The translations under genes and the position numbers were made by a program. Positions 22,489 through 50,600 of a stretch of DNA of 64,000 bases are shown piece after piece. The notes beneath the pieces were generated by a model. It was not told the DNA's origin and did no database searches. It worked only from the letters and a program-made list of their open reading frames with translations. How positions within the stretch are numbered: the stretch's first letter is position 1; the number at the start of each line of letters is the position of its first letter. This stretch comes from Elmis aenea (taxonomy: Eukaryota > Arthropoda > Insecta > Coleoptera > Elmidae): the NCBI GenBank assembly GCA_947652605.1, contig OX393576.1, forward strand, positions 52,800,966 to 52,864,965. Reading direction: 5' to 3'.

Positions 22489-25400
22489 ATGATGGATACT
22501 GTGTGGGCACGTGACCCCGATGAGGGGTTCGTGATTAGCCGCATCATTGAATTGCTACAAGATGGAGCTGAAGTTATACCACTGGATTCGAAACTTCCCA
22601 AACGTTTATGTACTTTCGATGACTTATATCAGGCTGGTGACTATAATAAAGAATACGATGACAATTGTAAGTGTTTTCAGTCGTATACTGGATAATTATT
22701 ACCAAAGAAATGTTTTAGGTGAAATGATATATTTGAATGAAGCTAGTCTGTTGAATAACGTTCGTAGAAGATACTATAGAAATAAAATATATGTGAGTAT
22801 AGGTTTATCATGTTAAGCGGCCCCCCCTACATGATCAATATTATTGCGGCAATATATTGCAAAATATTTTTTCTTGATGCTCCAAACAGTGCAATATTAT
22901 TGTCCAATTTTTAGTTGAAGTTTGAATTTTGTGCAGTTAACATGTTGAGCGATACCGAAGCTAGTTGTGTGGCTGTTTGCTTAAGAAAAAAAAATCGAGG
23001 AAAAGACGCAAATGGATGAAGCAGTGGTTTTAGTAAAGAAAGCAGTACACTCATGAAAATTTATTAAACTAAGATTAAGTGAACCAAGTGATTTTCGAAA
23101 CTTTTTGCGATTAGACGGTTCCTCATATTGTTAATTTTTTTAAAATTCTATTGCTGTAATCCTTGCACTTAACATCCCACAGAGCTGGTAAACTATGATA
23201 AACTTCAATAGACTCTAAAATAAATTTTCTGTTCTCTTCCTTTAACTTGGACATTTTTGACGATGTTTACTCTACAAAGTTTTGGTTAAAACTGAATCAA
23301 TATTGCACAATGTTGCACACAGACGATGCAATATATTTCATATTGCGCAATAAATATCTAAAAATTTTGAATTCACTCAATATATTGTGCAACCTTTCAA
23401 TACGATCCACAAACGGCCAATATTATTGTGCAAAGAGCAATATTGCACAATAATATTAATGGTGTAGGGGTCGCTTTAAGTAAACTGCTGAAATTCAAAA
23501 GAATAACTATTTTTAGTACTTATTTATAATTCTGAAGGATTTTTATAACTCGTAAATGATAAAATTGCATTTATCTCGGGACTTGGGTGATAAACAAATG
23601 AGTAGATAAAATCATTTTACTATGGACAAAAAAATTTACGTTGATGACAACTACATCTAACAATAAGATTTTTTAAATTTTGTTATTTTAGGTTTTCGTC
23701 CGTACTTAATATTTAAAAGATTTTTTTTAATTAAAATTTTTCAGTATCTTAATTATCTCATTTTGTTCAGGTATTAGCTCTAAATGTTAACAAACTCTCA
23801 AGGGTTGCGTAAATAATTGGACCACCCTGAATATTTAGTAGCTTAAAATATAAATTAAATTTTTATAGTTGAGTAAATGTTATTACATTTCTAGTGGGAG
23901 TCAATTAATTTTTTTTATGTATGTATACTTAGTGGCCGTAGCTAAATTCACAATAACAATGACCTGTCAATTTTGGTCAATTTTAGTCAAGTCATGTAGG
24001 CGAATCTCTTTTGCATATTACACCAAAGTAATAACTATATACAGAGTGTACAAAAAGTAACGTAACGGATCAATATCTCGTCTTGTGGCAACTTTACAAA
24101 AAAAAGTTTCGAATAAAAGTTGTTTGTGGTAATTTACTACATAACCTAAAATTATTTTCAACTATACACAGTGTTTTGTTTATGCATACCGATACGTCAC
24201 TTTGTTTTCTTAAATAGAACACCCTGTATATTTTGCACTTTTTAGATGCAGAATTAAATTGTCTTTCAAAATGTATAGGGTTTTATGTGTCTAAAATCAA
24301 TCGTTTTTGAGTTAAGTTTTTATGAAAATTTTGACAGAAACTGGAGTAAAAAAATATTGATATTTCACAACATAGCAATTTCAAAACGAATTCCTTTGAA
24401 ATTTTGTTCGACAATAGTATCACAATGACTGCTGACTAGTTAAAATTTTAAAATATTACACAGGGTGTTTTTTATGCTCGGTCCAATTGGTTAAACTTCA
24501 AACACGGATAAGTCAATTTTTTTAAATAAAACACCCTATATATTTTTACATGTTCTTATCGATAATTTAATTATCTTTAAAATTTGTTAAAGGTCTATTA
24601 TGTCTAAAATTAATATTTCTGGAGTTATTGCGGTTTTCAAGATAATTAATGGGCACAAACAAAATATTTAATAGAAACGTTTGCGTTTGAAATGTTTGAA
24701 GATATAAAACGCTGCAGTTTTTGTTAATAAATGGTTTATTATTACTTAGAAAGTTAATAAATATTGCTAAAAATATATTTAAGAGTTTAACTGTAGAGCA
24801 AAACCCAAAACTTTTATAACTTTACTTTAAAAAATGCACTTGGAAATAATTAGAAATTTGTAGAGCTCTAACGAAATTTATAAACGACATTTGACCGTAC
24901 AAAATGTTAATATTAATCTCAAAAAAATTATCCTAGTAACTAAAATAATATCCCAGCAACTATTCACTTTTTGTAATCGATCAATATACTTAATGAGTGA
25001 GGCTTTATTTGCTTTAATTAAAGAACAATTTATGTTGTTTTTTTATAATGAAAGGACCAGGTGTTGCCAGTATCATGTACGTAAATAAATAAGTGATGTG
25101 ATAAGTTTGACTATCAGCATAAAATTACGATGCAGAACAATTTTATCTAGATATAACATATTTCAACTAAGGAAATGGCACTCAAACTCTTATACCAAAC
25201 TAGTTTTAAGTAATAAACCATGTGGTCAATGAGTGAATAATAAAAATTGTTATTCAAAATTGAAAGACACATCTTCTTTCATTTTGAAACATTACTCTTA
25301 ATACTATATTAATTGATTACATGAACAATATTGTATTTATCTAATAATACATATATTTCTAAATAAAATTTCCCTAATATTCATATATATTGTACAACAC

Positions 25401-28400
25401 TTCAGAAAATAATATTTCCAAGATAATATTTTGTAATACATATTATTAAGCTACATACCTAAATCATTAAAACCCAGCTAATTAAATAGCATATATAGCA
25501 TATAGCTAAATTTCCAAGAGACATAGGTACTCAAAATCATTATTTATTGTTACTTGTACATTCTTATGTTGATTCACATTTTAAAAAAATTGGATGTTCA
25601 ATTTTAAAATTCTCTAATCAGTAGACTTTGGATGAGTTAGCTTTGCTGTCAATTTATAAATGATGATCTGTGGCATTATAAAGTGAAAGGAGTTTAACTT
25701 TAAAAGTATGTAACAGTTATGTTGGCTAATTAAATTTACAGTGATCATCTGCATATAAGATGCATTTAATGTACTTATTTGCAATTCAAATTTATTTTAA
25801 GGAGTAAATGTAAATAAAATTTTAAAAAAATATATGTGAAGCTCGAAGAACAAGTATTGTTAAAAGTATATATCAGGGTGTCCCAAACACGAGGCCTAAC
25901 AAGAAAATTGTTGATATTAAGAGCTTGGTTAAATTAGGGAAAAGTTGTACAATTTAGTTCTTCATCTGATAGAAAAATTCTTTTAACTCTTTTAATTTAA
26001 AAGTTACTTGGGAAAAAATAGTACCCAAAATTTTTGATGCATACAGTCACATTACACATTATTCATGGAATTTATAAAATTGTTTTTAAAGCGGGCTTCA
26101 GACGATCAGTATATATTGTCAATAAATAAATATTGACAAACTGCATTTGCCTCACACGATCAATATTTATTGACAATACATTTAGTTTAAGTTTGACAGT
26201 CAACGATGTTGTATCGAAAGAAAGCTTGTGTTGCTATTATGGTGGTTATCGGTAAAAACCCAAACAAAATTATGAGCAAAGAAATGGTTAAATGAAGTTC
26301 ATACTACCACCCCAAAAGATTTTCAAAATTATTTTCGCATGACTAGCACGTCTTTCAAGTAACTATTTATTTAGTAGAACCAGCTATCGTGGAACAAGAT
26401 TAGTTGTGTTTATGGAAAAGTATGATTTTGATACTTTTAAAAACGATTAGCATACTTGTTGACTGTAGCTCTTCTCGATGCAAAGCGAGGTATTGTCAAT
26501 AATCGCTGTCAAATGGTCAATATTTATTGTCAATGTTAAAAATATTTTGCTTTTCATTAAACCACCCCATCAATATTTGAAATATTGACAATATGTCAAT
26601 ATATACCATCAAACGTTCAATAATATTGACAATACTGAAATATTGACAATATATATTGATCGTCTGAAGCCCGCTTAAGATAAATAGGATGGCCATGCCA
26701 TATTTAGCCTGGAATTTTAGACACCCTGTATATATTCTTAATATATGATTTAAAAGTTATTTGAGACTACCTGAAATACAGACATAGAAATACTAACATA
26801 AACAAAATGGAAGTTGAAAATAGCTTTGTGTATAGCAGTTCATTAATGATATACCAAATTTATTGAAAAGCAACCTGAATATTCTGTTTTGTTGCTTATT
26901 TTTGATATAATGCTGTGTGGAGGATAAAGAATAAGTTTAAATATCACTTAAGTTATCAGTATTCTCTCGCCGGTTTCTAACAGTTTTAAAAACCCATGTT
27001 CCATGTTATTTTAAAATTAAGAAATCCACATAATTAATTACGAAATAATAATTGATTTTGATGTAATTAATTAATAATAAAGCTTAAATTCATTAAATGT
27101 TGGTAAATTAATTGATAATTGAAAAGTTATTAGGCCTTATCTTCATCATCCATTTTTATGTAATAATTTTTTAGTATATTAAATAATGCGATGTTTTTTT
27201 TTTCAGTCTTATGTTGCAAACATCTTAATAGCAGTAAATCCTTATACAGAAATTCCGGAAATGTACTCTTCAGCAACAATACGTAATTATCAGGGCAAGT
27301 CCTTGGGCGAAAGACCACCACATGTATTTGCAATGGCAGATAAAGCGTTTAGGGACATGAAAGTTTTCAAACAATCACAATCGATCATTGTATCTGGAGA
27401 ATCTGGAGCTGGAAAGACTGAATCAACCAAACATTTGTTAAGATTTTTATGTCACAATTGGGGCACAAGCGCTGGCCCAATAGAACAAAAAATTTTAGAT
27501 GCTAATCCAGTACTGGAAGCATTTGGAAATGCTAAAACTACTCGTAATAATAATAGCTCTAGATTTGGGAAATTCATAGAAGTGCATTTTGATAATAAAT
27601 TTCATGTGGTTGGTGGACATATTTCGCACTACCTATTAGAAAAATCGAGAATATGTTGTGCTACTGGAGATGAAAGAGGATATCATGTATTTTACTTGCT
27701 TATGGCTGGTGCTCCAGATAATCTTCGACAAAAACTGCATCTTACACAACCAGATCATTTTAGTGTAAGTACTGAACATATTATGTAAACATAGCTTTAG
27801 CAGTTTAATTAGCTTTTGTTATTGGTAAATGTTTCTGAGATCTTCATGGCAGTAAAATTATTTTGGGCAAACTGTATATTAATATGTATATTTATATATT
27901 TCAAGTATCTGAAAAATGGATGTACAAGATATTTTGCCACCCCTGCAAGTGCTAAAAAGTTGTCTGCTGATCAAAAAAGTGCTGCTCATTCGAAACAAGA
28001 ACACCTCAAAGATTCCATTGTGGATGACATCGAAGATTTTAGTGTTTTGGATAAAGCCTTGTCAACTTTGGGATTAAATGATGCTGAACGACTGCAAATC
28101 TACTCCATGGTAGCTGCAACATTACACTTGGGTAACGTAGAATTTGAAGATAATCCTGAAGATACAAGAGGAGGATGCAGAGTTTCACAAGGTAGTGAAA
28201 AGTCACTTATTATTGCCTCAAAGTTATTAGAAATAGATGGAACTGAACTTCGACAAGCTCTTGTTTCCCGTGTTATGCAAAGTGCCAGAGGAGGTGCAAA
28301 AGGAACAGTCATTATGTAAGTATTTTGCTTCAGAAATACACAATATTCACTCTTTATTTTCTTAAGTGGGTCCTCTTGTACTTTTCAGTGTTGAAGTATA

Positions 28401-31400
28401 TTTTCCCAATTCTTAATTATACTTTTCCACCTTTTTCTATTGTTGACTAACTGTGACACATCTCTGAAACTGACTGTTTTTTTTTTGTTATTGCCTCCCT
28501 TCATTTTCCCCATTTAGTTCTTCATCACCTTCTCTCTTTTCAATCTTCATTTTTCATCTCATTTTTACGTACCTACTTCTAGCTAGTGTAATAAATATCC
28601 ATCCTGGCCATCTAAGTTGGTTTGAATCCACATTTTCTTTATATCTTTCACTCTTAAACTTTTTAATTTTGTAATTACTGAGCTTTTTAATATTCATATT
28701 AATAGGTAAAGCATTATAAAAGTGTTTGTAAAAAAAAAACAAATTTAATGAACATTTTTATTTGATTTTTTTTTTCAATACAAAAAAAGCCACAGTAATT
28801 TTTTCTCCATTTAGGGTGCCTTTAAAAGTGTATGAAGCCAACAATGCCAGAGATGCCTTAGCTAAAGCAATTTATAGTAAATTATTCGACTACATTGTAA
28901 AACGTATTAACGAAAGCATTCCATTTCAAGCATCTAGTTATTATATTGGTGTTCTAGATATTGCAGGATTTGGTACGATACAATATATATTTATTGCAAA
29001 CTTCTTAAGTGCTTTAACATTTTTTTGCAGAATTTTTTACCGTCAATAGTTTTGAACAGTTTTGTATAAATTATTGTAATGAAAAATTACAGCAATTCTT
29101 TAATGAAACTATTCTAAAATTTGAGCAAGAATTATATAAGAGAGAAGGTTTGAATGTTCCAGAAATTAAATTTGTTGATAATCAAGATTGTATTGGTATG
29201 TGTATTAAATATTGTAATCTAAATAGATTAATGTTATTTTTTCAAATTTTACCAAATAGATCTTATTGAAACTAAAAATAATGGCATCCTTACACTCTTG
29301 GATGAAGAATCTAAACTTCCTAAGCCATCATATGTACACTTCACCACAGAAATACATTCCCATTGGCCAAATCATTTCCGTCTAAACTTGCCAAGATCAT
29401 CAAGACTGAAGGCACATCGTAGTATTAGAGATGATGAAGGTTTTTTAATAAGACATTTTGCAGGAGGCGTTTGTTACCAAACTGTACGTCTTTGACAAAA
29501 TTACACACTTTTAGTGCTTTGTTACCTATTATAATTGTAGGTACAATTTATTGAAAAAAATAATGATGCTTTACATGCATCCCTTGAAGGAATTATTCAG
29601 GAAAGTTCTAACAAACTTATACAATCGCTTTTTTCCATAGCCAATACTCAAAAAGGAAAACTTACATTCATTAGTGTTGGAAATAAATTTAAAACACAAC
29701 TTGGTGAACTTATGGAAAAACTAAGAAGTAACGTACGTTAATTCAAACAATAATTTTGTAGTTAAATGTTTAAAGCAGTGTTTCTCAAGGTGTGGTCCGG
29801 GGACTCCTGGGGGTCCTCTGAGCCTTTTATTATGTTTAAAATCATTCAGCTTTAGTTACCAAACTAATTAAAAACAAAATATTGTCTACTAACAGCCGTA
29901 TTCATAGTCCTTCCTTATCTTAAGGATTGAGGAAGCTTCAAGAAAGCTCGCAACCTCCATTGAGATAAGGTAGCCAATGAGGTTCCTTGTTCGGTCAAGG
30001 TAGATTTATGAAACATGAAACGAGGAATAAGGAATCCTTATTCCTCAAGGAAGGACTATGAATACGGCTGGAAGCAATTCTTTGGGATCCTCTGTAAGCT
30101 TTTAATTTCGGAAGGGGTCCTCAGAGTAAAAAGTTTGAGAAACACTGATTTAAAGCATCATTTTTTAACGTAGTTATAGTAATCATTCGTATAAAACACA
30201 CTCAGCAAATTAAGTTTGATTGAAATGTTGCATGCGGCTTTGTCCTTATATTGACCAAAATTATTGCAAATTTTATTTACAGGGTACAAATTTTATACGA
30301 TGTATTAAACCTAACAATAAAATGATTGACCAAAAGTTTGACGGTGCATTGAGTTTAATGCAACTGAAATGTTCAGGCATGAACCACGTCCTAGGACTTA
30401 TGGAACATGGATATCCAAGTAGGGCCCCTTTTAATGAACTGTATCAAATGTATCAAGAATATTTGCCCAAAGAGTTGCGTCAATTACCAGCAAGAACATT
30501 TTGTGAAGTAAGTTATAAATTTTTATGTAGTCAAAAGTTCTAAACAATGATTTTCAGGCAATGCTGCATAGTTTGAAACTTCACGAAAAAGAATTTAAAT
30601 TTGGTGTTTCCAAAGTATTTTTCCGTCCAGGGAAATTTGCAGAGTTCGATAAAATCATGAGGTCTGATCCGGAAAATCTAAAAGCTATAGTAGCGAATGT
30701 TCAGAAATGGTTAATTAAATCTAGATGGATTAAGTCTGCTTTTTGTGCTCTGACTGTGATTAAATGTAAGTATTTCGGTTGCAGACCAGTCCATGATTTA
30801 ATCTGTAATTAACACGTTAACTGCCAAATGAGTGATCCGGGCGCCTCGTGAGTTACATACAGGGTGAGTCATTAGTGGCGGATCGGTCGATTGTGGCTAA
30901 ACGCTTTGAGATAGAAAGTTGATTCTAACGGTATTCCATACAGTTTTTTCTTCCGAACACGATAAAAATATTTTGAAATATACAGGGTGAGTCACCTCTC
31001 TGGAACCAATAGCAACTTTTATATTTCAAACAACACCTCATTTTTTATTTAATATTCTTGACCACCTTCATTTAAGCTTTACATCGATATAAAATAGTAC
31101 AGGTTTTTATGAGGCCTTGTCACTAAAAAAAAAAAAAAAAAAAATTTTCAAGGTTTTAAGTCTATTAAAAATATTCACCTGAAGTCATTTTTCGAAGCAC
31201 AGAGTTGTAATTTGGTAAGGACATGCAGAAAACATTGCTCTATTCGCTCGATATGAAAAAGTTTGAATCACGCGTACAGGTGTTCATAAATAGGTGGCAA
31301 CTTTCCTGATTTTCAAAAGCTCGTAATTCAACTTTTTCAAATGCAAACCCCTGTATTTTCTTATGTCATCGAATTCGTCTTTAAGAGAGCTTCTTTTTTT

Positions 31401-34400
31401 GTTAAGTATGTCCTATACCCAAAACTCATACTTTTCGAGATATTCGACTTTTTTTTTTTTCTAATCGTTATTAAAGCAAATAGGATGCCATGGAAATCGA
31501 AAAAGCTGACTATTCACTTCACTAACGTCAAAAACTTGTCATTTATTTCTTGAATTATAGCATTTCCACAATTAATTTCACTTTACAAGAGCAAATTAAT
31601 ATGGTTTATTGCTTCAGAGAAGGCGAAAGATATCCTTTGCTGGCGGCAAGGATTTACGCACATTTTGATTAATATGCACTTATAGGCTAACTAGTTTATT
31701 CAATTTCATATAGTAATGATTTTTTTATGTTCTATTATTTTATTTACAGAATTTATTTAATGTTTTTTTTTGTTGTTTCAACAAATAATTTGTCTTTCAT
31801 TTTCCATTTTTCTTCGCGCTCCCTTTAAGGTTTAGAAACACTAGTAAAGTTCATAACAATAATAAAATTGATTTGGTTGCCAATTTATTTATTGCTTATA
31901 AGTGAATCCACAAGACTAAAGTATCTACCTACTATTAGTAATTAAATACACGAAACAGTGAATAAACCATGTCAATTTGCTCTTGTAAAGTGAAATTAAT
32001 TGTGGAAATGCTATAATTCAAGAAATAAATGACAAGTTTTTGACTTTAGTGAAGTGAATAGTCAGCTTTTTCGATTTCCACGGCATCCTATTTGCTTTAA
32101 TAACGATTAGAGAAAAAAAAGTCGAATATCTCGAAAATTACGAGTTTTGGGTATAGGACATACTTAACAAAAAATGAAGCTCTCTTAAAGACGAATTCGA
32201 TGACATAAGAAAATACAGGGGTTTGCATTTGAAAAAATTGAATTACGAGCTTTTGAAAATCAGGAAAGTTGCCACCTATTTATGAACACCTGTACGCGTG
32301 ATTCAAACTTTTTCATATCGAGCTAATAGAGCAATGTTTCTGCATGTCCTTACCAAATCACAACTCTGTGCTTCGAAAAATGACTTCAGCAGAATATTTT
32401 TAATAAAGACTTAAAACCTTGAAAAATTTTGAATTTTTTTTTTTTTTTTAGTGACAAGGCCTCATAAAAACCTGTACTATTTTATATCGATGTAAAGCTT
32501 AAATGAAGGCGGTCAAGAATATTAAATAAAAAATGGGGTGTTGTATTTGAAATATAAAAGTTGCTATTGGTTCCAGAGAGGTGACTCACCCTGTATATTT
32601 CAAAATATTTTTATCGTGTTCGGAAAAAAAACTGAATGGAAAACCGTTTAGATCAACTTTCTATCTCAAAGCGTTTAGCCACAATCGACCGATCCGCCAC
32701 TAATGACTTACCCTGTATAACTCCATGCTGTTTGGTTCAGAAGCCATGTGCATTGTATAAACTTGAGGCTGTTTGCTAAGGCATTGCCAAAAAACAAGTG
32801 TGGCATAGGGGACTATTTTATGCATTTTGGTGTGTCCCCAGGGACCCACTCATTTTTTCCAACGTAGCAGTGAACGTGTTAAAAAATTAAAAACATTTTT
32901 AAAAGTAATTTCTGTTTGTAGTAAAAAACAAAATTATATATCGCCGTCAAGCTTTAATTATTATGCAAAAAACTGTACGAGGCTATCTAGTAAAAAAGAA
33001 GAATGAACCAAGAATAAAAGGCTTAAAAAATATAAGAGGACTAGATGGAAAACTAAAGCAATTGAAAAGTGTGGCAAGCCAACTTAAAAAAGATAAAGAA
33101 AGCAGCACAAATGAAATTAATCATATAGAAAGTGAAGTTGCAACTGCCATCGATAAAATTAAGGTATTTTTTCTCCCTATTCTTAATAGCATTTTGTATT
33201 ATTTGAATTACATGTAATATTTTTTCATAGAAACAAAATAATATCACTGCTGCAGCAGTCGATCAGATGTACAAACAGCTTTTAGACAAAGTTGACAAAC
33301 AAATGACAATCTTACAAAAACGTGTGCAAGACCAAAAGAATGCCGAAGAACAAGAGCGTCTACGCAAAATTCAAGAAGAAATGGATCGAGAACGTAGGCG
33401 CAAAGAAGAAGAGGAAAGGAGAATTAAAGAAGAAGAAGAAATCAAGAGGCAAAAAGCTGAAATTGAATCACGTAGAAAACAAGAAGAAGAAGTACGAAGA
33501 AAACAGGTATTTGAATGTCTTTGTAGTTTTTTCAGAATTATGTTTGTTTTTGTGTAGGAAGAAGCTGATAAGAGAGCAGCGCTGCAAATTCAAGCACAAC
33601 AAGAAAAGGAAGCACTTGAAGAACGCAAGTACCAACAGCAACTGGAACAAGAGAGACAAGATCATGAACTGGCTGTCCGATTAGCTCAAGAAAGTAACGG
33701 GCAGCTGGAAGAAAGTCCACCACAAAATCGAAAGTACGTAGAAAAATGTAAATTACATGTAGTTTGTGTATTTTGCACAGTTTTCTTTGTGTTAGTGTAG
33801 TATACATGTGAAAAGCTTAAGACTTTAGTTTTAAAAAGCCTTTGGAGTATTTAGAAAAATAAAGCTAACGAAATACAAAAAACTTATTGATATCGTCCAA
33901 ATTTAAAAATGCTTCTGTAGAATAATAATTTAATAAATTGTCTGATTATATTTACAAAACTAATGTCTAAAGCTGTATATAAATGTACATATTTTGGTGG
34001 CAGCTCACTGTCAATGCTTGTTGTTTCCATGATTCAGCGGTGGAATCGACTACACAGGTCACTCCCAGAGACTCAACAGGTATTATATAAGTACTTTGAC
34101 AGCATTTATTAAACTAACAATTCATACCACATATTAACGACAACATTCTGTATGAAAAACATTTATTACAAGGAAATTTTGAAAGTAATTAGTCACTGAA
34201 CAACATTAATTTTTTAGAATCATTAATTGTGTCTAATTTTACTTATCTTAATTTGTTTTTCACAAAGATTAAACTAAAATTCCTAATTTTCGATTTTTTT
34301 TATAATTTCCGGAAATGATTTGAAAAACTTTAAATATACAGGGTGGTGCTTTTTTCGATGCTCACCATTGCTATCTTGGAAACGGTAAGAGATACAAGGT

Positions 34401-37400: not shown

Positions 37401-40400
37401 GAAGGTTGCAGACTATTTTTTGACCAATAACGTATATTTGTATTGAAAGGCTGCGTGCCTCAAAGACTTAAAATATTATAAAAACTTATTTAGATATTCT
37501 ATTAATCGTAGTATACTGTGCATAATTGCAACAATTTTCACTAATTTTTTTTATTAAATAACTATATTAGTTACAACTATAATTTGTTTTGTTGCACTTA
37601 GTCCACTTAGGCACAGTGTACTGCGATTAATAGGATATCTTAACAAGTTTTTATAATATTTTAAGTCTGTGAAGCAGCAATCCAACACAAATATAAGTTA
37701 TTGGTATTGTTAAATTCGTCAGGAAATACTCAATTTAAATAAGTGCATGTACTACTGCATTTGCATTTGTCAAAAAACTGATTTGCAATCTTCAAAGCCG
37801 ATTAAAGTAACCTAAATGGCAATTAAAATTTACAAAAATATTTGTCGGACACTTGTTGACAAAATAAAATTCTATGTATGCAGGTCACGGCTCACTTAAT
37901 AAAAAAATAAATTATTGTTCAAAAATTACTTAAGGTTATTTAAATTAACCAAAGTCCTACATGGTAGAGGGACTTAAGACTAAATAAAAATAAAAAAGTA
38001 ACCAAACCAGTGCAGTTGAATTCATAATTGCCTCTTTCTAAAAATGTAAATATACAGGGTGTCCCCGTTATCACCGCGAATATTTTAAGTGGTGATAGAG
38101 GACCTTTTTCTAAGAAAAAATGTCAAGTAAAATTTTTTCCTTAAATCAAATGCTAAGCTGATATTAACACTTACTTGATTTTTTTACACTTCTGCATTTA
38201 TAAGACTCTATAGCCGAAAATATCAATTTTATCGTAAAATACCTCAAAGCTTTTTAATAGAGCATGAAATTCTCTACAAAATTAGTTTTATTTATTTTTT
38301 GTCTACAGGCAATGGTTTGAGAGTTATAAAGCAGTTTGTACAAAAAAATGTAAAAAATTGACAAAATTTAATTGTTTCTTAGACTTTGCAACCGCTGTAT
38401 CTTTAAAACGAAAGGTTGTACAAAAAAACTGACGGCCCATTCTGGATAGCAAATTTTATGGGCTACAACTTTGGTCAAGTGAAATTTGTTGAAAACCAAA
38501 CCGATTTTCCGGAAAAGCTGAAAATAAGAAATAGAGTGCAAAAACAAAATTTCCTACAAATATTGTTTTGTATTTAAAAATGCTTTTAAAGAGAGTGCGA
38601 TTACGTAATTGAATGATGGAGGTCATTTTGAACACTTATTTTGTGGTTACATGTTAATTTTATTGTGTTAAGATGGATTTGCATTGTTTTGAATTTTATC
38701 GTTTTCGAAAAACAAAAACTCCCGGTTATTATGATATTTTGTATTTAAAAATTCCATAGCACCGGCAACATTCATAAAATTATGTATCTCATCAGTTTCA
38801 AAGCTTTTTATGAAGTTTGAAATTCTTCACAAAACCACCCCTTATCATTTTTTTTAAGGAGCTAACGAACAAATTTAACAAAAAATTGTAAAATTACATA
38901 TAAATGTTATGTAAATTTTTAAAAACGCCGCATCTTTTTAACGAAACGTCGTAGAGCAAAACGGATGCCTATTGCGGATAAGGCATTTAACGGACTACAA
39001 CTTCGGTAAATATGTTGTTCAATAAAACTAAATGTATCATAGAAATGTTTATAATAGTGAAAAAGGTGAAAAAAAAAACGATAAAATGCAAAACAATGCA
39101 AATCCATCTGGATGCAATAAAATTAACATGTAACCACAAAATTACTTCAATAAGTGTTCAAAATGACCTCCATCATTTTCAATCACATAATGGCACTCTC
39201 TTTAAAAGCATTTTTAAATACGAAACAATATTTGTAGGAAATTTTGTTTTTGCACTCTATTCCTTATTTTCAGCTTTTCCGGAAAATCGGTTTGATTTTC
39301 AAAAAATTTCACTTGACCAAAGTTGTAGACCATAAAATTTGCTATCCAGAATGGGCCGTCAGTTTTTTTGTACAACCTTTCGTTTTAAAGATACAGCGGT
39401 TGCAAAGTCTAAGAAACAATTAAATTTTGTAAATTTTTTATATTTTTTTGTACAAACTGCTTTATAACTCTCAAACCATTGCCTGTAGACAAAAAATAAA
39501 TAAAACTAATTTTGTAGAGAATTTCATGCTCTATTAAAAAGCTTTAAGGTATTTTACGATAAAATTTATATTTTCGGCTACAGAGTCTTGTAAATACAGA
39601 AGTGTAAAAAAATCAAATACGTGTTAATATCAGCTTAGCATTTGATTTAACAAAAAAAATTTACTGGAAATTTTTTCTTAGAAAAAGGTCCTTTATCACC
39701 ACTTAAAATATTCGCGGTGATAACGGGGACACCCTGTATATATAGGGTGTTCCATTTGAAATAACAAAGTTAGGGCAATTTCCTGCGATACCGAGAGTGA
39801 GATAATAGTGTACATATGTTCAAATATTTCGGTTATTTACACATATCATATGTATAAAAGTTTATTTATCTAAAATTAAAACTAAATTAAAAAAAAGTAC
39901 CAGAACTCAGTTACACCCAGTATATTTCTTTACAGTAGGTGCAAATAGCCAATTAATCGTACCTACTGTAGGTGCAAATAGCCAATTATTCGTACCTACT
40001 GTAGGTGCAAATAGCCAATTATTCGTACCTAGTGTAGGTGCAAATAGCCACAACCATAACAAAATTAGTCTCAGTGTACCTACCGGGTGTCCCAGTTTGG
40101 TATTCGCACCCCTATAGATGCTAAACCATTTAACTTTGGATGATGAAAATTGATAGGATTATATTACATACAATTTAACAACGTTTTGTACTATTGCGAT
40201 TATTCAATGACTGCGACATGTCTTTAGTCATTTGTTTTTCTATTGTGCTGCCATCTTTAATTTTTTTCAAACAGTACCATAGGTCGTGCGGGGCATCATT
40301 TTAAAAGGAATTTAATTTTTAATACAGCAGTGCATAAATGTTATTGTGTTACAAAGGAAAAGTTTTTTAAAAAAACTGTAAATTTCATTAGATGACTCCG

Positions 40401-42221
40401 TAGAGCGTAGACAAACTGTTAATTTGCTTTCAATCTTTTGTTTTGTCATTTATTAGTGAGATTGTTAAAAGTTCTTTTGTAATTTTTGTTTTGTGTTTTT
40501 TAAAAAATAAATTTTATTTATTTATCGTTTACTTGTACAATAAATTAAATGTATTGTTTAGACTATTTTTTAAATACTAAATACTTTTCTGTTTTTCAAA
40601 AAATTTCCTGGGTACCAACAAAACAAAACTTTGGAAGCAAATAAATAACCGTTTTTATCTATGGAGTCATCTAATGACATTTTGCATTTTTCAAAACTTT
40701 ACCCATGTAACATATTAACATTTTTGCACTGCTGTGTTAAGTATAAAATTGTCTAACCCATTGAGCTATTTGAAAAAATTTAAAATGGCAGTACAACAGA
40801 AAAACAAATGAATAAAAAAATGTCGCAGTAGTGCCAAAAGATGTTAAATTGTTTATAATACAAGCCTAACAATTTTCATTATCGCAAGTTTATGGTTTAG
40901 TACTTATAGGGGCGCGAACCCCAAACTGGGACACCCTGAATATTATGCACATCTATTTTATTTGTATTAGGCTCTCTCACGACCCTGTAATTCTATTATA
41001 CCTAATATTTATGGTATTTTCGCAGTTTCCTAAATTTTTAGCAGAAAGAATGCCAATTAAAGTTACGAATATATAGCTGCTTAATGCCTTAAAATATTTT
41101 TTAATTAAATTTCCAATTTTGGACAGTTTTTTTAAATAGAAAGTGCACTCTCTAAGAACCACAGCGTCCTAGAGAAGCTTACATAATATGAAATTGTAAT
41201 CAATAAGTGTGGCTTTTTAAATTTGCATTTGTGTCTGTATTTTCGTTTATAGATCTCTTTTATTTTTTTGTTACGACATTTTGTACGTAAATAAGCTTAT
41301 ATGTATATATAATTTTTTTATTTTTGTGTATACAATTAGCAGTCCTAATTAAAACTATTAACAGACCAAACTGTAGTACTAGAAATACATTTTATGATCT
41401 GTTCACATATCTCATCACTACTGCATGTAACTAAAGTTAACATAAAAATCTAATTTTCACTGTCACCATTAACCAAACTAAACATACCTTAAGATAAAAT
41501 TTACAATATTAATATATCTAGATCAGAAGCAGTCAAAAACCAACAAGCAGCTTTAAGCAAGAGCAAATACGATTTATCGAAGTGGAAATATTCAGAACTG
41601 AGAGATACAATCAATACATCATGTGACATTGACTTGCTTGAGGTGAGTTATAATTATGATCATATCCCAAGATTAATAAGGTTAATATGTAGGCATGCAG
41701 ACATGAATTCCATAGACGATTGAAAGTGTATCATGCTTGGAAAGCCAAGAATCGTAAACGTACTACGATGGATGAAAATGAACGAGCACCACGTTCAGTT
41801 ATGGATGCTGCAAACAAAGCACCCAGGATTGTGCAAAAGAATCCAGTTATAGAAAATAATCAACGCTTTTTCCGCATTCCATTTATTCGACCTAATGCTA
41901 ACAATGTGGAGCAAAACAAAAGAGGATGGTGGTTTGCTCATTTCGACGGACAATATGTTGCCAGACAAATGGAGCTGCATCCAGAAAAACAATCTGTTTT
42001 ATTGACAGCAGGTATAGTACAGTTTTAATATTTTCAAAATGTTTGATTTTATCATTTGATTAATTACAGGAAAAGACGACATGCAAATGTGTGAATTATC
42101 CTTAGAAGAAACAGGGCTGACACGAAAGAGAGGGGCCGAAATACTGGAAGTTGAATTTAATAAAGAATGGGAACGTAATGGTGGCAAACCATATGTACGC
42201 CCAGCTGATCGCAAGCGTTAA
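22489..42221 (+). CDS. jar: Myosin VI heavy chain (minus-end-directed actin motor), complete
   Basis: Unconventional myosin that moves toward actin minus ends in endocytosis and cell-shape changes. Coding exons: 22489-22666, 22719-22792, 27207-27764, 27906-28315, 28815-28972, 29031-29195, 29260-29483, 29541-29732, 30283-30507, 30558-30765, 32922-33163, 33231-33506, 33558-33733, 34038-34079 (cassette), 41522-41642, 41693-42011, 42070-42221. All junctions are GT-AG and phase-consistent, giving 1239 aa (1225 without the cassette), a normal size. Seen: P-loop GESGAGKT (about residues 148-155), switch [11 protein letters not shown], switch II DIAGFEFF, a Thr at the TEDS-rule position (KGTVIM), the myosin VI-type insert and one IQ motif ([12 protein letters not shown]), an E/R/K-rich single helix, then the cargo-binding domain with RRL and a WWF version of WWY. 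The start is MMDTVW, 9 nt after an acceptor at 22479, so at least one non-coding 5' exon lies upstream and was not located. jar is the Drosophila symbol. Confidence 0.96.
22816..23475. mobile_element. PIF/Harbinger-type MITE in myosin VI intron
   Basis: 660 bp. Ends AGCGGCCCC...GGGGTCGCT with TTA on each side (22813-22815, 23476-23478), the 3-bp site typical of PIF/Harbinger. Subterminal regions are full of CAATATTATTG/CAATATATTG motifs in both orientations. It lies 23 bp from the exon ending at 22792. Confidence 0.65.
23479..25873. other. Myosin VI intron sequence with transposon ends
   Basis: AT-rich. Mariner-type ends occur near 24222 (ACACCCTGTAT), 24460 (ACAGGGTG) and 24530. A block at 24370-24500 matches a block at 58750-58870 in the HAD-phosphatase intron, so it is a shared repeat. 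No coding sequence was seen. Confidence 0.45.
25874..26728. mobile_element. CAGGGTGTC-ended element interrupted by a Harbinger element
   Basis: CAGGGTGTCCCAAACACG at the left and GACACCCTG at 26720-26728 form terminal repeats. The interior is interrupted by the element at 26090-26675. Confidence 0.55.
26090..26675. mobile_element. PIF/Harbinger-type element, AGCGGGCTTCAGACGATC ends
   Basis: 586 bp. Perfect ends AGCGGGCTTCAGACGATC / GATCGTCTGAAGCCCGCT, with TAA on each side. Subterminal ATTGACAATA motifs recur many times. The interior (about 26300-26400) has a degraded piece of the same transposase fragment as the copy at 56.9 kb ([17 protein letters not shown]). Confidence 0.75.
29776..30147. 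mobile_element. hAT MITE in myosin VI intron
   Basis: 372 bp. Ends CAGTGTTTCTCAAGG and TTTGAGAAACACTG. Flanks GTTTAAAG and ATTTAAAG match at 7 of 8 bases. It contains another MITE. Confidence 0.75.
29893..30070. mobile_element. Small palindromic MITE nested in the hAT MITE
   Basis: 178 bp. CAGCCGTATTCATAGTCC and its exact complement form the ends, followed by mirrored TTCCTTATC/AAGGAA blocks. Superfamily not assigned. Confidence 0.65.
30813..32878. mobile_element. piggyBac-type MITE (TTAA site) hosting nested foldbacks
   Basis: Ends CACGTTAACTGCCAAATG and its partner near 32878 (CAGTGAACGTG), with TTAA on both sides (30809-30812, 32879-32882). A related TTAA element lies at 60545-60959. Most of the length is the inserted foldback pair. 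Confidence 0.7.
30860..32715. mobile_element. Double long-TIR foldback (mariner type)
   Basis: The outer unit has 123-bp arms with CAGGGTGAGTCATTAG ends at TA sites. At its exact dyad centre sits an inner 1.6-kb palindrome (30983-32593) with its own CAGGGTGAGTCACCTC ends and TA sites. The inner arms run about 620 bp to a loop near 31620-31960. The loop start carries a transposase N-terminal remnant ([20 protein letters not shown], about 31587-31670). Confidence 0.8.
32922..33733 (+). other. jar: Myosin VI IQ, three-helix-bundle and single-alpha-helix exons
   Basis: Exons 32922-33163, 33231-33506 and 33558-33733. The first gives the IQ motif ([17 protein letters not shown]) and the proximal tail. 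The second and third encode a run of about 90 residues rich in E, R and K (for example [16 protein letters not shown]), typical of the myosin VI single stable helix that extends the lever. The last exon ends in phase 2 (AA|gtacgt), so it can join either the 42-nt cassette or the tail exon at 41522 directly. Confidence 0.93.
34038..34079 (+). CDS. jar: Candidate 42-nt cassette exon of myosin VI
   Basis: The sequence ATTCAG|...|gtatta flanks a 42-nt open block. It enters and leaves in phase 2, so including or skipping it keeps the frame. Included, it adds [13 protein letters not shown] plus split codons between NRK and SEAVKNQQ, just before the cargo-binding domain. Vertebrate myosin VI carries alternatively spliced inserts in the same general part of the tail; treating this one as equivalent is inference. 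A nearer acceptor or complete skipping cannot be excluded. Confidence 0.6.
34870..35069. other. Assembly gap of exactly 200 N, probably spurious
   Basis: Two hundred Ns. The 238 bp before the gap (34632-34869) recurs after it (35070-35306) with a single-base length difference, so the flanking contig ends appear to overlap. The true sequence likely runs from 34869 straight to 35307. Confidence 0.9.
35500..35704 (+). pseudogene. Mariner-type transposase C-terminal fragment
   Basis: The frame reads [20 protein letters not shown] and on to [13 protein letters not shown]. The WPPRSP..L.P.D block matches the end of the mariner/IS630 catalytic domain. An upstream decayed piece ([12 protein letters not shown], about 35400) corresponds to the QDGAPxHN-type second motif. 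Confidence 0.8.
36543..37065. mobile_element. hAT element, TAGGGTGACCATTCGTCC end
   Basis: 523 bp. Ends TAGGGTGACCA and TGGTCACCTTA. Exact 8-bp duplication TGGTACAC (36535-36542, 37066-37073). GTCCCCG motifs sit near both ends. A short TTAGGTT run near 36820 lies inside it. Confidence 0.8.
38055..39735. mobile_element. Long-TIR foldback, CAGGGTGTCCCCGTTATC ends
   Basis: 1681 bp. The terminal CAGGGTGTCCCCGTTATC mirrors GATAACGGGGACACCCTG. Arms of about 650 bp include the ATTTGCATTGTTTTG block near 38680 and its complement near 39090. TA sits on both sides. No transposase remnant was found in the loop. Confidence 0.8.
40083..40938. mobile_element. Long-TIR foldback, CCGGGTGTCCCAGTTTGG ends
   Basis: 856 bp. 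CCGGGTGTCCCAGTTTGG at the left mirrors CCAAACTGGGACACCCTG at the right, with mirrored GATGACTCC/GGAGTCATC blocks near the centre. It lies 20 bp from the preceding compound palindrome. Confidence 0.75.
41522..42221 (+). other. jar: Myosin VI cargo-binding domain, copy 1 (exons A1, B1, C1)
   Basis: A1 41522-41642 encodes [18 protein letters not shown]1 41693-42011 carries [11 protein letters not shown] (the RRL adaptor-binding motif) and [17 protein letters not shown] (the WWY-type motif with F for Y). C1 42070-42221 encodes [18 protein letters not shown] and ends in ADRKR and TAA. Introns are 50 and 58 bp. This is the normal terminus, followed by its own 3' UTR, and it is the reference for the extra copies that follow. 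Confidence 0.95.
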
Positions 42222-42400
42222 TCAGTTTCTAAATATATTTAAATAGATACAATTCACAAGAGTTTGTTTAAGTTTTTACTACTAGAAGCTTCACTTTGAC
42301 AATTTTATATATTTTATTTAATTTTTATGTTTTGGGGGCTTGTTTGTAATATAGATAATACTGTTATTTATAATTTATTGCTAATAAAATCCTATTTCAG
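42222..42400 (+). terminator. Myosin VI 3' UTR with AATAAA signal
   Basis: The sequence after the TAA contains AATAAA at 42383-42388. The same UTR, recognisably diverged (an AAGTTTCACTTTG-like block, CTTGTTTGT, AATAAA, AGGAATATTTT), follows the fourth last-exon copy near 46.53-46.66 kb, which supports it as the ancestral UTR. Confidence 0.7.
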
Positions 42401-44072
42401 GAATATTTTGTTTCTATTAGAAAAAAATCACTGCACATCAGTATATACAGGGTAGGCCAAAAGTATGGAAGTGTTGCTGTAACAGCGTAAATACAAGTTT
42501 TATAAAAAAATCTTTTTTACAAAAAGTGTATGAACAATTACTGTTAGCTATACATTTTGACGTAATTCAAATATATTTTTTTCGGCCAACCGTGTGCAAC
42601 TGACGAGCGATTGTCAAGTTTTTTTAAATGACAACCTGTATGTTTTAACTGTAATTGATAAACAATGTTTTTCTCTATTAAACAGTATAAGGTTTTCTAA
42701 GTGTTACATAATACAATTTTTAAGAAAAACGGGTTTCAAAATTATTTATTATTTTTAACAAAATCGTTTTACTTAACTATACAAAACACGATCACTATAG
42801 TACCTACTTGACAGTCTATAACTTGTGTAATTGTGTTTTATTAATTTTCAATAAACTAACATTATTCTGTGAGCATTAAATTGAAACCCCCTGAATACAT
42901 TTTCACAGAAGTAATTCGACAGAAGGTTCATTTTCAATTTAAAACTCACAAAATAATGGTTTTTCGTTGAAAAATTATAAAACACATATAGACAAGTACT
43001 AAACTGTCCATTACTACAGCGATTGTTTTCTTTTCAATTTTAAATGCAAAAATCTCTATTTAATTTAAAATTTCACAATTAATTAAAAATATTAAGGTTT
43101 TTGATGCAGCTAATTAAAACATTAACCCTTACAAGAAATGTTTTCCCTTAACATGGGTTAACGACAACTATTAAATAATTGTGTCTTACTCGAACACAAA
43201 AGCAATGTTCAATGTAATAATAAGTTAAAGTTATTAAATTAATTACATGTATTACTTAATTATTGCTCAATCCAATGTGATATTAAGGCCAATATTTTTT
43301 AGCCATGGGCACTTAAATTTGTTAAGGCGGCCCTGGCAAAAGTAAATAATACACCAGATTTGTAGATAGTGAGGGTAGAATATCAAACCAAAAATTTGCT
43401 TTGAATGGATAGGAAAATTTCTAAAACTGTCAGATTCCAAAAAAAATTGTGGTCCAACATTGAATGGATAACAACAAAACTTTGAACCAAAAGTCTACAA
43501 CAAAGTACAGCTCTACTTTATGTGGACATGCGTTAGTTACTATCTAAACGGATCCTAGTGTTCAAAATTATTGTAAAGAACATTTTTTGTTTTTAATTTT
43601 ACATTTTGAGTATTAAACATTTTGTTGAAGTTTATTGTGACCATTTTTTTTTTTAGATTCTGCAAATGTTTTATTTTGTTCATGTTCATCCTAGCTGCAA
43701 CATTTTTTTAAAAGCAAAATACCTAAGTGAACCACCTCACCCCATTCAGGGTAAACTGTCTGTCGGTGTATATTATTTTATTAAGCACACATAACATTGT
43801 ATTGACAATTTATAATACTTTGGTCAAAGTACCCATAATATAACATTAAAAAATTTGTAATGTAATTTATGTTGTTTTTCAATAAATTTTGTACCTACAT
43901 GATAACAATCATTTCAAAACTTCAAAAGTAAAGTACAATTACATCATATGAATAATACACCATATCTTATCACTGTGGCTTTTAACAAAGTTATATCAGT
44001 TATTGATTTTTACCCATTAATCTATACACAAACTATTAGGAGTATAATTTAGCATTGTTTAATATTATTAAA
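42401..44072. other. Spacer between myosin VI and its extra tail copies
   Basis: It holds a lone CAGGGTAGGCCAAAAG end near 42447 and a partial copy of the 13-kb foldback (about 42750-43040). A hAT-like end (GCGGCCCTG) lies near 43330. No gene was seen. Confidence 0.4.
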
Positions 44073-44536
44073 ATGGATAGATCGGAAGCCGACACAAACC
44101 AACAAGTACCTTTAAACAAGTTTAAATATGATTTGTCAAAATGGAAATATTCAGATCTACAAGAAATACTGAATACATCTAGTAGCATCGAGTTACAAGA
44201 AGTGAGTATTAAATGTCTGCCCACATATTCTACTGTTACTAAGAATAATATTTAGGCATGTAAATATGAATTACATCGACGACTGAAAGGATATCATTCT
44301 TGGAAAGCCAATGATCATAAACGGATAATGGAAGAAAGTAAACAAGCACCGAAGATAATGCAGAAAAACCCAGTTGTAGAAAATAATCAACGCTATTTCC
44401 GCATTCCGTTTATTCCACCTAATGACAACTATGTGCAGCAAAACAAAAGAGGATGGTGGTTTGCTCATTTCGACGGACAATATGTTGCCAGACAAATGGA
44501 GCTGCATCCAGAAAAACAATGTTTTATTGACAGCAG
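44073..44536 (+). pseudogene. Myosin VI cargo-binding domain copy 2, exons A2 and B2 (frameshifted)
   Basis: A2 is 44081-44201 if spliced in; an in-frame ATG at 44073 could also start it. It encodes [17 protein letters not shown], clearly homologous to A1 but diverged. B2 is 44256-44536 and keeps HRRLKGYHSWK and [17 protein letters not shown]. Compared with B1 it lacks 12 codons in its variable middle and has lost 2 nt (CT) near 44520, in the stretch reading GAAAAACAATGTTTT. This shifts the frame before the donor, and splicing on to the next exon would reach a stop within a few codons. The 5' part is diverged while the last 140 bp nearly match copies 1 and 3, which suggests gene conversion. 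A sequencing error for the 2-nt loss is possible. Confidence 0.75.
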
Positions 44537-44584
44537 GTATAGTACAGTTTTAATATTTTTAAAATGTTTGATTTTATCATTTGA

Positions 44585-45148
<564 letters not shown>

Positions 45149-45206
45149 GTATAGTACAGTTTTAATATTTTTAAAATGTTTGATTTTATCATTTGATTAA
45201 TTACAG

Positions 45207-45418
45207 GAAAAGACGACATGCAAATGTGTGAATTATCCTTAGAAGAAACAGGGCTGACACAAAAGAGAGAGGCCGAAATACTGGAAGTTGAATTTAATAA
45301 AGAATGGGAACATAATGGTGGCAAACCATATGTACAACTTGCTGATCGCAAAAAATATATTACCAGACTGGAACTGCATTCTGAAAAGCAACCTGTTTCA
45401 TTTATAGCAGGTAAATAG
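45207..45418 (+). CDS. Chimeric myosin VI tail exon C3/B4
   Basis: It starts as a last exon ([18 protein letters not shown], through [14 protein letters not shown]). Instead of stopping as C1 does, it continues as the end of a B exon: [20 protein letters not shown] aligns with [21 protein letters not shown]. It can end at TAG 45416-45418, or splice at the donor after 45410 (phase 1) into the last-exon copy at 46390. This is a second exon-internal, in-frame fusion in the array. Confidence 0.65.
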
Positions 45419-46389
45419 AGTGATACAGAAAAATAAGGAGCTCTTAACTACACAACACACGTGTACATTGATTCAAAAAAAATTAAACAATTATCCTTTA
45501 AAGTACTCTCCATTCTACCCAATTTTTGTTCTATTGCTTTATCTTCTTTATATAGACATCTAAAAATTTATTTTTGAAGTCTGTTGAGTATACCTAATGC
45601 AGTATTGTTGAGCTCAGAATCTGACTCGAATAGCTGACCTTTTATTTCTTTTTTTACTTTAGGAAACAAATGAGTCACATGGAGCTAAGTCAGGACTGGG
45701 TGGTTCAAACTCGATATTATTTTTAAAAAATAGTTAAATTACCAAAAACATGCAGCTTTTTAAAATTAATCCAGAACTGTTTACAAAAACTTCTAACCAC
45801 ATTTGGTTTTTGAGTTATTTTTAAGTGTTTTTTTTAGTTATTTAAACAATGTTTAAATATCTGTTTATTATCGTTTGAAAAAAATTTTACAGGCTTTTTT
45901 GCAAAGTTTTTTGTGCAGAATGTAGGGTGGTCACTATTTTTTAAATTTTACAGTTATAAGAGTTTTAACATAAATTTGTGTTTTCTTAAATAGCTTATAA
46001 GGTTTTCAAATTTCTTTTTTTTCTGATATCAAATATATATTGATTAGCACAGCTATTTTAAAACACCAGAAGTGACAACTATTCATTTGTTTCAGACAAT
46101 ATCAGTATTTACAACAATTGTTAAAATCGGTGTTTTAAATTCACGTTAAATTGTTGGATAGGCACAAATAACAAATATGGACCATATTGATGGTTTCCTT
46201 AATTACAAAACTTATCTCTGCTCAACTGATACATGATATTTTAATTAAAACCAATTAGAATTTAAGAATATTAAGCAATTAAGAAAGCAAACAAAAAATA
46301 AGCTCATGTAATTCAATCGAATTTGAACCACGCTGTTGGACTTCAATATTTTCAATGGGTGTTTGATTTAATTATTTGTTTGATTACAG
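45419..46389 (+). other. Possible intron between tail exons C3/B4 and C4
   Basis: AT-rich. It ends with about 60 bp that align with the B-C introns of the other copies (TTTAATTATTTGTTTGATTACAG). No other feature was seen. Confidence 0.4.
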
Positions 46390-46532
46390 GAGAAAATGAA
46401 ATAAAAATATGTGAAGTGTCTTTGGAAAAAATAGAACTGACGCGGAAGAAGAGAACCGAAATAAAATTTGATATAGTGGCAGAACAAAATGATGACAAGC
46501 AAGAAGCAGTTGTAATAAAAATATTTAAATAG
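46390..46532 (+). CDS. Diverged fourth copy of the myosin VI last exon (C4)
   Basis: An acceptor GATTACAG precedes GENEIKICEVSLEKIELTRKKR, matching [22 protein letters not shown], and the frame stays open to TAG 46530-46532. The end has changed (EQNDDKQEAVVIKIFK). Phase-1 entry is retained, and the upstream intron segment resembles the other B-C introns. AATAAA lies at 46625-46630 in a UTR related to that of copy 1, so this exon can still end a transcript. Confidence 0.65.
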
Positions 46533-47688: not shown

Positions 47689-50600
47689 ATGAATCCAGCT
47701 AAGGATATTTTAAATTCTGTTCGAACCGGAGTCAACAATAGTATGTCTTCTAAAGAACCTTGGCAAATTGTTACAATTACTGCATCAACTGTTCTTATAT
47801 CGGTATGGTTGTACGACTTCGTTTTTCAAAGCGAAAGTAAGTTGTTCTGACTATTAAAAGATGTATACTTAGTAATAAAATATACTTTTAGGTATAGCTG
47901 AACGTGTGAAAAAAAGATTCTTTAAATGGATCAAGTTCATTCCCAGTATCAGAAAAAAAATTGATAAAGAACTTAAAATAGTATTTGATAACTTGGATAA
48001 AGATGTTCGTGAAAGAACAAAAAATCTAAAGTATATCACATGTCTCCCTTCAAATGGACTGACCAGGGACGAGATTTTAAAATTAACAGATGAAAATCTA
48101 AGTTTTGGTAAAAGCATTATTATCAAAAATTTATTTTTGATCATATAATAATGGTATTATATTATAGCTGATTATAATTGGAAGGAAGGACGAGTATCTG
48201 GTGCAGTCTACTATATAGATCCGGAATTATCCCAACTTGTTACAGATGTATACGAAAAAACTGCATATACGAATCCTTTGCACGTAGATGTTTTTCCTGG
48301 ATTGTGTAAAATGGAAGCTGAAGTAGTAAGAATGGCATCAGAATTGTTTCATGGAGGTCCCGAATCTTGTGGTACTGTAAGTTAAAAGTTATTGTTCTAA
48401 AGCAGGGGTGTCAAACTCAATGGCTAACTTGGGCCATACAAACAAGGCTTAACTTTGGGTGGGCCGCAAAAAAAAATTTTTGTTGTTTAACCCCTTGAAC
48501 GTTACATTAAATTCCTCGGTTTATGCATTTGACAATGTCGCGGCGGCAGAGGCTAACCTTTTTTTATGTTGCTTCTGTAATGAAGCTGTGAGTTGAAAAA
48601 TACAACAATTAGGCTGTTCTCTATCAGCTTCGCAAAAAAATTAAATTTTTTGTTACAAACACACCCAAAAACCACGCCAACCCAACTTACCCAAATCTAC
48701 CTGCATAAGATTTTTGGGTCAAGAAAAAAGAAGACTTTTGGCGTCGGTGACAAAGACCAACCTACTTTTTGTCTTTTTCCAACTTATAGCTTCAACACAG
48801 AATGCACGTTAAAAAAAAAATCTACCTACGCCGCCTTGATACTGTCGCGTGCATAAAACCGGCTCTAACGCGCGATCAACCGAAGTTATCTGCTTTCGCG
48901 TGTACAAGGCCTCAAATCGTACAGCACGGCACAAACGCAATAAAACCGCTCGAAAACAGTTTGTAGAACAAGGTCAACGGTGCAAAAGCGGTAAAAATGC
49001 CCAAATTTAAATCGTAGAGCCTCGGCATTAGCGCGAAAAGAACGCCCGAACCCAGTTCGTAGAGCACAGTCAGGGGGTTAATAATAGCAAAAAAAGATTA
49101 TAATTAAAAAAACGTTAAGCGAATTCTACCTATCTTATTTTTATTCTGCGTCGGTTTGTTATCTATATATATAAAAATGAATGTATGTATGTATGTCCTT
49201 TATATTCCTATACCACTCATCCGATCCTGACCAAATTTGGCACAGACAATCTATAGGACCATGGGAAGAACATAGGCTATATGAGAATTCCCAAAAGTTC
49301 CAAAAATTCCCAAAAGAACCAAAATTCCCAAAAGATCCAAATATCACAAAAGTTTCAAAATTCTCAATAGATACAAAAATTCTCAATAGATACAAAAATT
49401 CCCAAAAGATCCAAAATTCTCAAAAGGTCAAAAACGTCCACCGAGCGCGAAGCGCGAGTAGTCTGTGATTGATAAAAAAATTCACCGAGCGAAGCCGGGT
49501 CACTACGCTAGTTTTATTATATATTATTGTGCGCCGATAATTATATTGGCCGGGCGGCAAAATGTTCGTTGCGGTCCGCATGCGGCAAGTTTGACACCCC
49601 TGTTCTAAAGCATTACACAAGCCAAAAAAAAAATTATTGAAACAATAAAATTACATAACTCAAAAATTAACAGAAATAAATTAAATCTGATTATGCTATT
49701 GTTATTTACGTAAGAAATTGCATCCTGCAATTGAATAAAGATATTTAATTTTTAGTTTAACCATCAGATGCTCTTAAAAATTCACCCAATAAACAGTAAT
49801 TCGTTTTTTTGTATCGATACTATAAACTGAAATATTTCGAATTTGGGACACCCTTAAAAACATTGTTTATGTAAAGCTTTCTAATTAATAGATGACAAGT
49901 GGTGGAACAGAGTCAATTTTGATGGCTTGTAAGGCTTATCGAGATTATGCCCGAGAAGTACGTGGCATAAATAAACCTGAAATTGTAATCCCTACAACTG
50001 CTCATACTGCATTCGATAAAGCTGCTCAATATTTAGGACTATATGTGAGAACTATTCCAATTGATCCATACACTACACAAGTAAACTTGAAGGCCATGAA
50101 GTCAGCAATTAATTGTAATACAGTAATGGTAAGTATGTAATGATAATTTGCTACAATTTAGGCAGAAAACAAAAGTGGTTGTGTGCAAGAAAGGAATAAT
50201 AAACGTTAAATTTAATTTTTTGTTAATATTTTCATTAAAATGTTACTGATCCTTTACTTAGCAAAAACTAAATACCATAAGAGTGCACCTAGTCCTGGAT
50301 TCAGCCCTGACCAATTTAATATACAGGGTGGACCAAATTCGATTGGATTACATGGGTATCTTGCTTAATATTTAAAATAGAGAAATAGTTAAATTACCAA
50401 AAATTATTTGAGACGAACTCAAAACCGTCTTTATGACAATAACAGAGATACGACACTTTATTAAAATGGCAAAAAAAGTTTTTCGTTAATAACTGAAAAA
50501 CTGGAAATGATACAATATTTCTGAAAACGGTTGTGAATTTGTCTCAAAAAACTGCAAATTTGTGGTATTTAACTTTCTCTATCATGAATATAAAGCAACA

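Follow-up and report, generated by a model that had tools for sequence, protein, structure and literature searches.

The DNA analysed here, a stretch of 64,000 nt from the beetle Elmis aenea that we call the window, carries a myosin VI gene and, directly behind it, a tandem array made of copies of the last three exons of that gene, which we call A, B and C. The window lies at 52.80–52.86 Mb of contig OX393576.1 (C1) in an assembly of 516 Mb and 302 contigs. In a tblastn search, Agrilus myosin VI (P0002, 1225 residues) covers window positions 22492–42218 from its first through its last residue. A Myosin_head match from Pfam is found at 27183–27785, and the last exon before the tail ends in ..QNRK near 33734. 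The tail itself is encoded by A1, B1 and C1 (copy 1). The translation of these three exons matches the myosin VI chain 8w41 with an E value of 8e-73 (247 bits) and contains the complete Myosin-VI_CBD domain (PF16521, profile positions 1–90 of 90, 147.6 bits). Beetle myosin VI proteins are the closest named relatives, with at most 75% identity over the searched C-terminal region among the matches listed. Judged from its sequence, copy 1 is the true end of the myosin VI gene, and the motor gene can terminate normally at C1, which has a stop codon and a polyadenylation signal.

Table 1. Exons of the myosin VI gene and parts of the array behind it, in window coordinates
Feature	Position	Strand	Description	Basis
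Myosin VI exons upstream of the tail	22492..33734	+	motor, lever and medial tail	tblastn with Agrilus P0002, residues 1–1030; donor sequence
Exon A1	41522..41642	+	true gene
Exon B1	41693..42011	+	true gene; RRL and WWF motifs
Exon C1	42070..42221	+	true gene; stop TAA (at 42221), AATAAA at 42383
Flank 5' of A2	43860..44080	+	resembles the intron end before A1 (41300–41521)	local score 48, against a maximum of 39 in 200 shuffles
Exon A2	44081..44201	+	old, diverged copy; in-frame ATG at 44072 just upstream
Exon B2	44256..44536	+	old 5' part, young 3' part; deletions of 36 nt (in frame) and 2 nt (frameshift)
Fused exon C2/A3	44595..44779	+	in frame; C part to ~44688, A part from ~44691
Exon B3	44830..45148	+	full length, young; C>Y, V>E, R>P, A>D, N>Y and E>Q relative to B1
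Chimeric exon C3/B4	45207..45410	+	in frame; stop of C lost, joined to the 3' end of a diverged B
Exon C4	46390..46532	+	diverged copy of the old layer; ends in TAG; clear relation to C1 in the first half
3' flank of C4	46533..46680	+	resembles the 3' untranslated region of C1; AATAAA at 46625 and 46657	score -2, against a shuffle maximum of -18

A sequence-only reading of this DNA had placed nine tail exons at these positions, and all nine are present, with AG acceptors and GT internal donors. It had further taken the last myosin VI exons to be repeated directly behind the gene, which is borne out by repeats 91–99% identical over 169–300 nt. Positions 41554–41853 recur at 44691–44990 with 99% identity over 300 nt, and 41995–42163 recur at 44520 and 45132 with 98–99% identity over 169 nt; a further repeat is 91–93% identical over 182 nt. 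These repeats are far beyond chance. When the whole 516-Mb assembly was searched, the DNA of copy 1 (779 nt) was found at three places and its protein gave nine exon matches, all inside the window. Copy-1-like exons were not found outside the window in a search of the assembly that would miss diverged copies such as C4; C4 itself is not listed by the protein search, so equally diverged copies may exist elsewhere. The reading had counted three complete B exons with RRL and WWF motifs: the letters of both motifs are indeed there in B1, B2 and B3, but B2 is not complete.

The copies were said to differ in age, and the array does consist of old, diverged pieces and a block close to copy 1. The diverged pieces run in the order A2, 5' part of B2, 3' end of B4, C4 and the 3' flank, and the best reading of A2, the two B pieces, C4 and the 3' untranslated region is that they are parts of a single old duplicate. 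The likeness of C4 to C1 covers the first half of the exon and extends to the end of the preceding intron and to the following 3' untranslated region. From this and from the resemblance of the flank of A2, we infer that the old duplicate comprised the intron end, exons A, B and C, and the 3' untranslated region. The second half of C4 (46467–46532) shows no detectable DNA similarity to C1 (score -18, shuffle maximum -5). No similarity above shuffles was found between the intron after B1 and that after B4 (45411–46389, 979 bp), nor further downstream of the 3' untranslated regions or further upstream of A1 and A2. The old B exon is in two pieces, one from 44256 to about 44440 (5' part) and the other at about 45351–45410 (3' end). 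Between them lies DNA near copy 1, namely the 3' half of B2, the C2/A3 fusion, B3 and the greater part of C3. The near identity proposed for copies 1 and 3, introns included, is confirmed, as their A–B introns are identical and their B–C introns differ by one base. Five differences from B1, all within about 25 nt, are common to B2 and B3; we read them as a putative remnant of the old B in both. The last third of C3 also holds several differences. Such mosaics would point to gene conversion or unequal crossing-over.

The fused C2/A3 and chimeric C3/B4 exons described by the sequence-only reading are both found, in frame. The C2/A3 join runs from ...GAATTTAATAA to TAAGCAAGAGC, with about two extra bases, and the C3/B4 join lies near the end of C and leads onto the diverged B at a common CAA. 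The repeat spacing is 610–612, and the C2/A3 join would fit the duplication of a unit of about 610 bp head to tail. In a tree of 148 columns with 21 other species and the two copies, the branch of the old copy has a length of 1.30, that of copy 1 of 0.10 and those of the other species of 0.01–0.21. Sisterhood of the old copy with copy 1 was not rejected by the approximately unbiased test (p 0.051), the long old-copy branch weakening the tree test. Copy 1 groups weakly with Lamprigera (support 57), which may point to an elateroid affinity of the beetle. An origin of the copies as a retrocopy was ruled out because introns are retained.

We enumerated the exon paths that start at A1 or A2, keep the exon order and end at C1 or C4. 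Of the 82 obtained, nine are open to the final stop, and none of the nine uses B2. A1-B1-C1 encodes 197 residues, A2-B3-C3B4-C4 encodes 262 and A1-B1-C2A3-B3-C3B4-C4 encodes 430. The 430-residue path holds two tails that are almost complete and part of another; the end of C (the last ~19 residues) is missing from the first, and the start of A from the second. The 2-nt deletion in B2 breaks the frame just before the B2 donor, so that A2-B2-C2A3 stops after 142 residues, and an intact second tail straight through these three exons was rejected for that stop. As spliced, the A2-B2 path contains an incomplete Myosin-VI_CBD (profile positions 1–46 of 90) and stops after ..KRRHANV. The disabling deletion could be avoided by splicing from A2 to B3, and except for the out-of-frame B2 the exon phases are compatible and the splice sites intact for alternative splicing. 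Copy 3 (B3-C3) has a complete Myosin-VI_CBD (profile positions 1–90 of 90), yet near-invariant residues are altered in it; counting B4-C4, Pfam reports two Myosin-VI_CBD stretches.

We analysed selection on the copies by means of conserved columns, defined as at least 95% in 120 homologs; 110 of the 196 tail columns qualify. Changes at such columns make up 5 of 12 in B3/C3, 16 of 35 in A2/B2 and 22 of 32 in B4/C4. As a baseline, differences from copy 1 fall on such columns in 6 of 128 cases in four orthologs and in 201 of 5234 in the 120 homologs taken together, with a single-homolog maximum of 14%. Leaving out the doubtfully aligned columns (64–89 of A2/B2 and those after 172 of C4) gives 13 of 26 for A2/B2 and 16 of 21 for B4/C4. 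Removing the four orthologs, which are part of the 120, from the conservation columns gives 5 of 12, 16 of 35 and 20 of 32, against 2 of 128. Fisher p values against the four orthologs are 7e-4 for copy 3, 2e-8 for A2/B2 and 3e-14 for B4/C4, and are indicative, as related changes are treated as independent. The change R106P is common to copies 2 and 3, and copy 1 departs from a conserved column once, at V142. Extra cargo-binding domains as a working feature are not supported by this pattern, in which residues almost invariant in the family are altered in the copies.

The substitution counts were also considered by age. Between A3+B3+C3 and copy 1 there are 11.5 nonsynonymous and 3.5 synonymous changes on 437 nonsynonymous (N) and 109 synonymous (S) sites, a ratio that appears to be about that expected without selection. 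Over 129 codons, 54.7 N and 37.3 S differences separate the old pieces from copy 1. Simulations run with branches of equal length, a mutation bias of 70% AT and an omega of 0.05 on copy 1 fit an old branch evolving at 0.5–1 of the neutral rate and reject 0.25. The changes in A2/B2 and B4/C4 are not shifted to variable sites (P 0.17 and 0.44). For the 3' end of B4 the pairwise ratio of nonsynonymous to synonymous rates (dN/dS) is 0.79, a value that mixes in the constrained copy 1.

Relatives of the copies were sought among 172 distinct protein records, some of them fragments, composed of the best 120 of 2945 matches, the best 120 of 2914 matches and 21 from a search with the old pieces. None of these records, which are proteins and not genomes, contains such an array. 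The sole internal tail repeat among them is one of about 54 residues around WWY in a Plutella xylostella gene model (P0149, 1457 residues), and could reflect faulty annotation or assembly, or else a minor exon duplication. No near-identical protein occurs among the best 120 of 2945 matches, the best reaching 75% over the searched region. The joined old pieces retrieved the 21 proteins mentioned, the best with 49% identity over 79% of the query and the highest identity being 53% over 40%. None of these 21 looks orthologous to the old copy, and none of the 172 records is closer to its B segment than to B1. Six records are closer to A2, and one is closer to C4, than to the copy 1 segment, all with low scores. 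Some one-tail proteins rank higher in the search with the repeated query, which we take to be a probable scoring effect of that query.

We consider it probable that the array arose by partial duplication, in tandem, of the 3' end of myosin VI, and that it has been under strongly relaxed or no selection, has recombined with its parent and is by now mostly a non-processed pseudogene. An old duplication would have copied the intron end, exons A, B and C and the 3' untranslated region, and all diverged pieces would derive from that one duplicate. The young block would go back to a duplication, head to tail, of some 610 bp between the middle of A and the middle of C, and to gene conversion or unequal crossing-over with copy 1. 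Two junctions inside exons produced C2/A3 and C3/B4. The downstream copies keep usable splice sites, and some splicing into them may occur. Like non-processed pseudogenes beside their parents, a general class treated in passages of PMC2257972, the array adjoins its parent, keeps its introns and carries a disabling deletion, the 2 nt missing from B2.

Several observations weigh against this explanation. The splice sites are intact (AG in 9 of 9 acceptors, GT in 7 of 7 internal donors), the 36-nt deletion in B2 is in frame, and both exon fusions are in frame and delete the stop of C. The sites changed in copy 3 are somewhat more variable than randomly chosen ones (P 0.026). Full neutrality of the old branch has P values of 0.25, 0.10, 0.04 and 0.01 at branch lengths of 0.2, 0.3, 0.4 and 0.5. 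The 129 old codons contain no stop, for which the simulated chance without selection is 9/300, 1/300 and 0/300 at branch lengths of 0.2, 0.3 and 0.4; a simpler scheme with 133 codons and 40–110 substitutions gives a stop-free chance of 0.2–5%. Pairwise dN/dS is 0.19–0.23 for A, the 5' part of B and the first 25 codons of C, values that again mix in the constrained copy 1. In view of these 129 stop-free codons, the old copy probably encoded protein during some of its history, under a weak constraint that does not follow the sites kept in myosin VI.

In a rival reading, the array supplies alternative or tandem tails: the motor would be joined either to A1-B1-C1 or, beyond C1, to exons of the array, and its cargo binding would be switchable or doubled. 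From the donor at 33734 the transcript could run to A2-B3-C3B4-C4, a different tail, or through A1-B1-C2A3-B3-C3B4-C4, with its two nearly complete tails plus part. The nine open orders, including the 262- and 430-residue paths, are consistent with such use, as are the whole Myosin-VI_CBD in copy 3, the second stretch in the B4-C4 end, and the frames and splice sites preserved in the old parts. We nevertheless regard it as rather unlikely, since near-invariant residues are lost in every copy, the pattern of copy 3 is neutral-like, B2 is broken, C1 retains its own stop and poly-A signal, and the first tail of the tandem path ends without the last ~19 residues of C. It is slightly more doubtful that a second kind of motor is made by splicing past C1, with two nearly complete tails in a row or a swapped, fast-evolving tail, the fusions having removed the internal stops.

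An assembly error, with two haplotypes or a mis-joined repeat making a simpler locus that has a single old duplicate look larger, would explain why the young copies are only a few bases from copy 1. Differences of that size are within the range that alleles may show, and the window has one gap of 200 N (34870–35069), about 6.5 kb upstream of the array. The divergence of A2, 5' B2, 3' B4 and C4 from copy 1, however, means that there is an old duplicate whichever way the assembly is judged. The junctions fall within exons, the array contains no N, and the window is situated at 52.8 Mb of a long contig. We find an error of this type improbable. Least credible to us is a separate small gene encoding a motor-less tail protein that would start from the ATG at 44072 (aaaATGg) and compete for cargo adaptors. 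This ATG is in frame with A2 and directly 5' of it, and the frame is open from 44040. The likeness of the A2 flank to the intron preceding A1 indicates, however, that A2 began as an internal exon. The frame also breaks in B2 unless B2 is skipped, and none of the 21 proteins found with the old pieces seemed orthologous to the old copy.

A dispersed repeat of about 590 bp (42443–43034, strand unassigned) lies between copy 1 and the array. It has at least 97 matches on contigs C1–C7 (40 of 1637 candidates scored), 68–86% identical among the matches listed, many of them on both strands at one place, which indicates internal inverted repeats. The intron before A1 contains an inverted repeat of 567 bp (38047–38613 and 39178–39744, 96% complementary), and tandem 33-bp units at 39931–40050 have inverted copies near 36411–36540. 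The translated minus-strand flank of the 200-N gap is found again at 35664–35855 on the plus strand. Elsewhere in the window are a hAT transposase fragment (9095–9466, Dimer_Tnp_hAT, E 1e-4), a sphingosine-1-phosphate lyase match downstream of the array (49892–50137, best 3mc6, E 4e-21) and, on the minus strand at 59124–59837, frames matching haloacid dehalogenase-like hydrolases, of which 59559–59837 is just under the curated cut-off.

Should the array be no more than a relic, it still captures clearly how exons are copied in tandem, joined and then overwritten through recombination with the parental gene; if it is transcribed, it would be a natural test of a myosin motor with two cargo-binding tails. 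In the open-access literature, judged largely by titles and abstracts of the papers listed, we found no description of a duplicated or tandem myosin VI tail, and no paper on beetle myosin VI isoforms. The gene together with copy 1 is an ordinary insect myosin VI, the class VI unconventional myosin known in Drosophila as jaguar or myosin heavy chain 95F, and passages of PMC11040104 describe RRL and WWY-type adaptor motifs in the myosin VI tail. According to the same passages, alternative splicing in human and C. elegans myosin VI adds small inserts and not whole tails; the Elmis locus differs from known myosin VI in the copies of exons A, B and C behind the gene. Insect muscle Mhc resembles it in being an arthropod myosin gene with duplicated exons. 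Mhc, however, is a muscle myosin and not of class VI, its mutually exclusive exon clusters are known across arthropods, and fused exons of the C2/A3 kind do not occur in the passages of PMC2257972 on which this comparison draws. In Drosophila Gr39a, as portrayed in parts of PMC2204066, the exons are expressed and spliced alternatively to a common 3' end, whereas here the copies are themselves the 3' end. What Gr39a shares with this array is tandem exon copies of differing age, some recent or converted, together with pseudo-exons and weaker selection on the duplicates.

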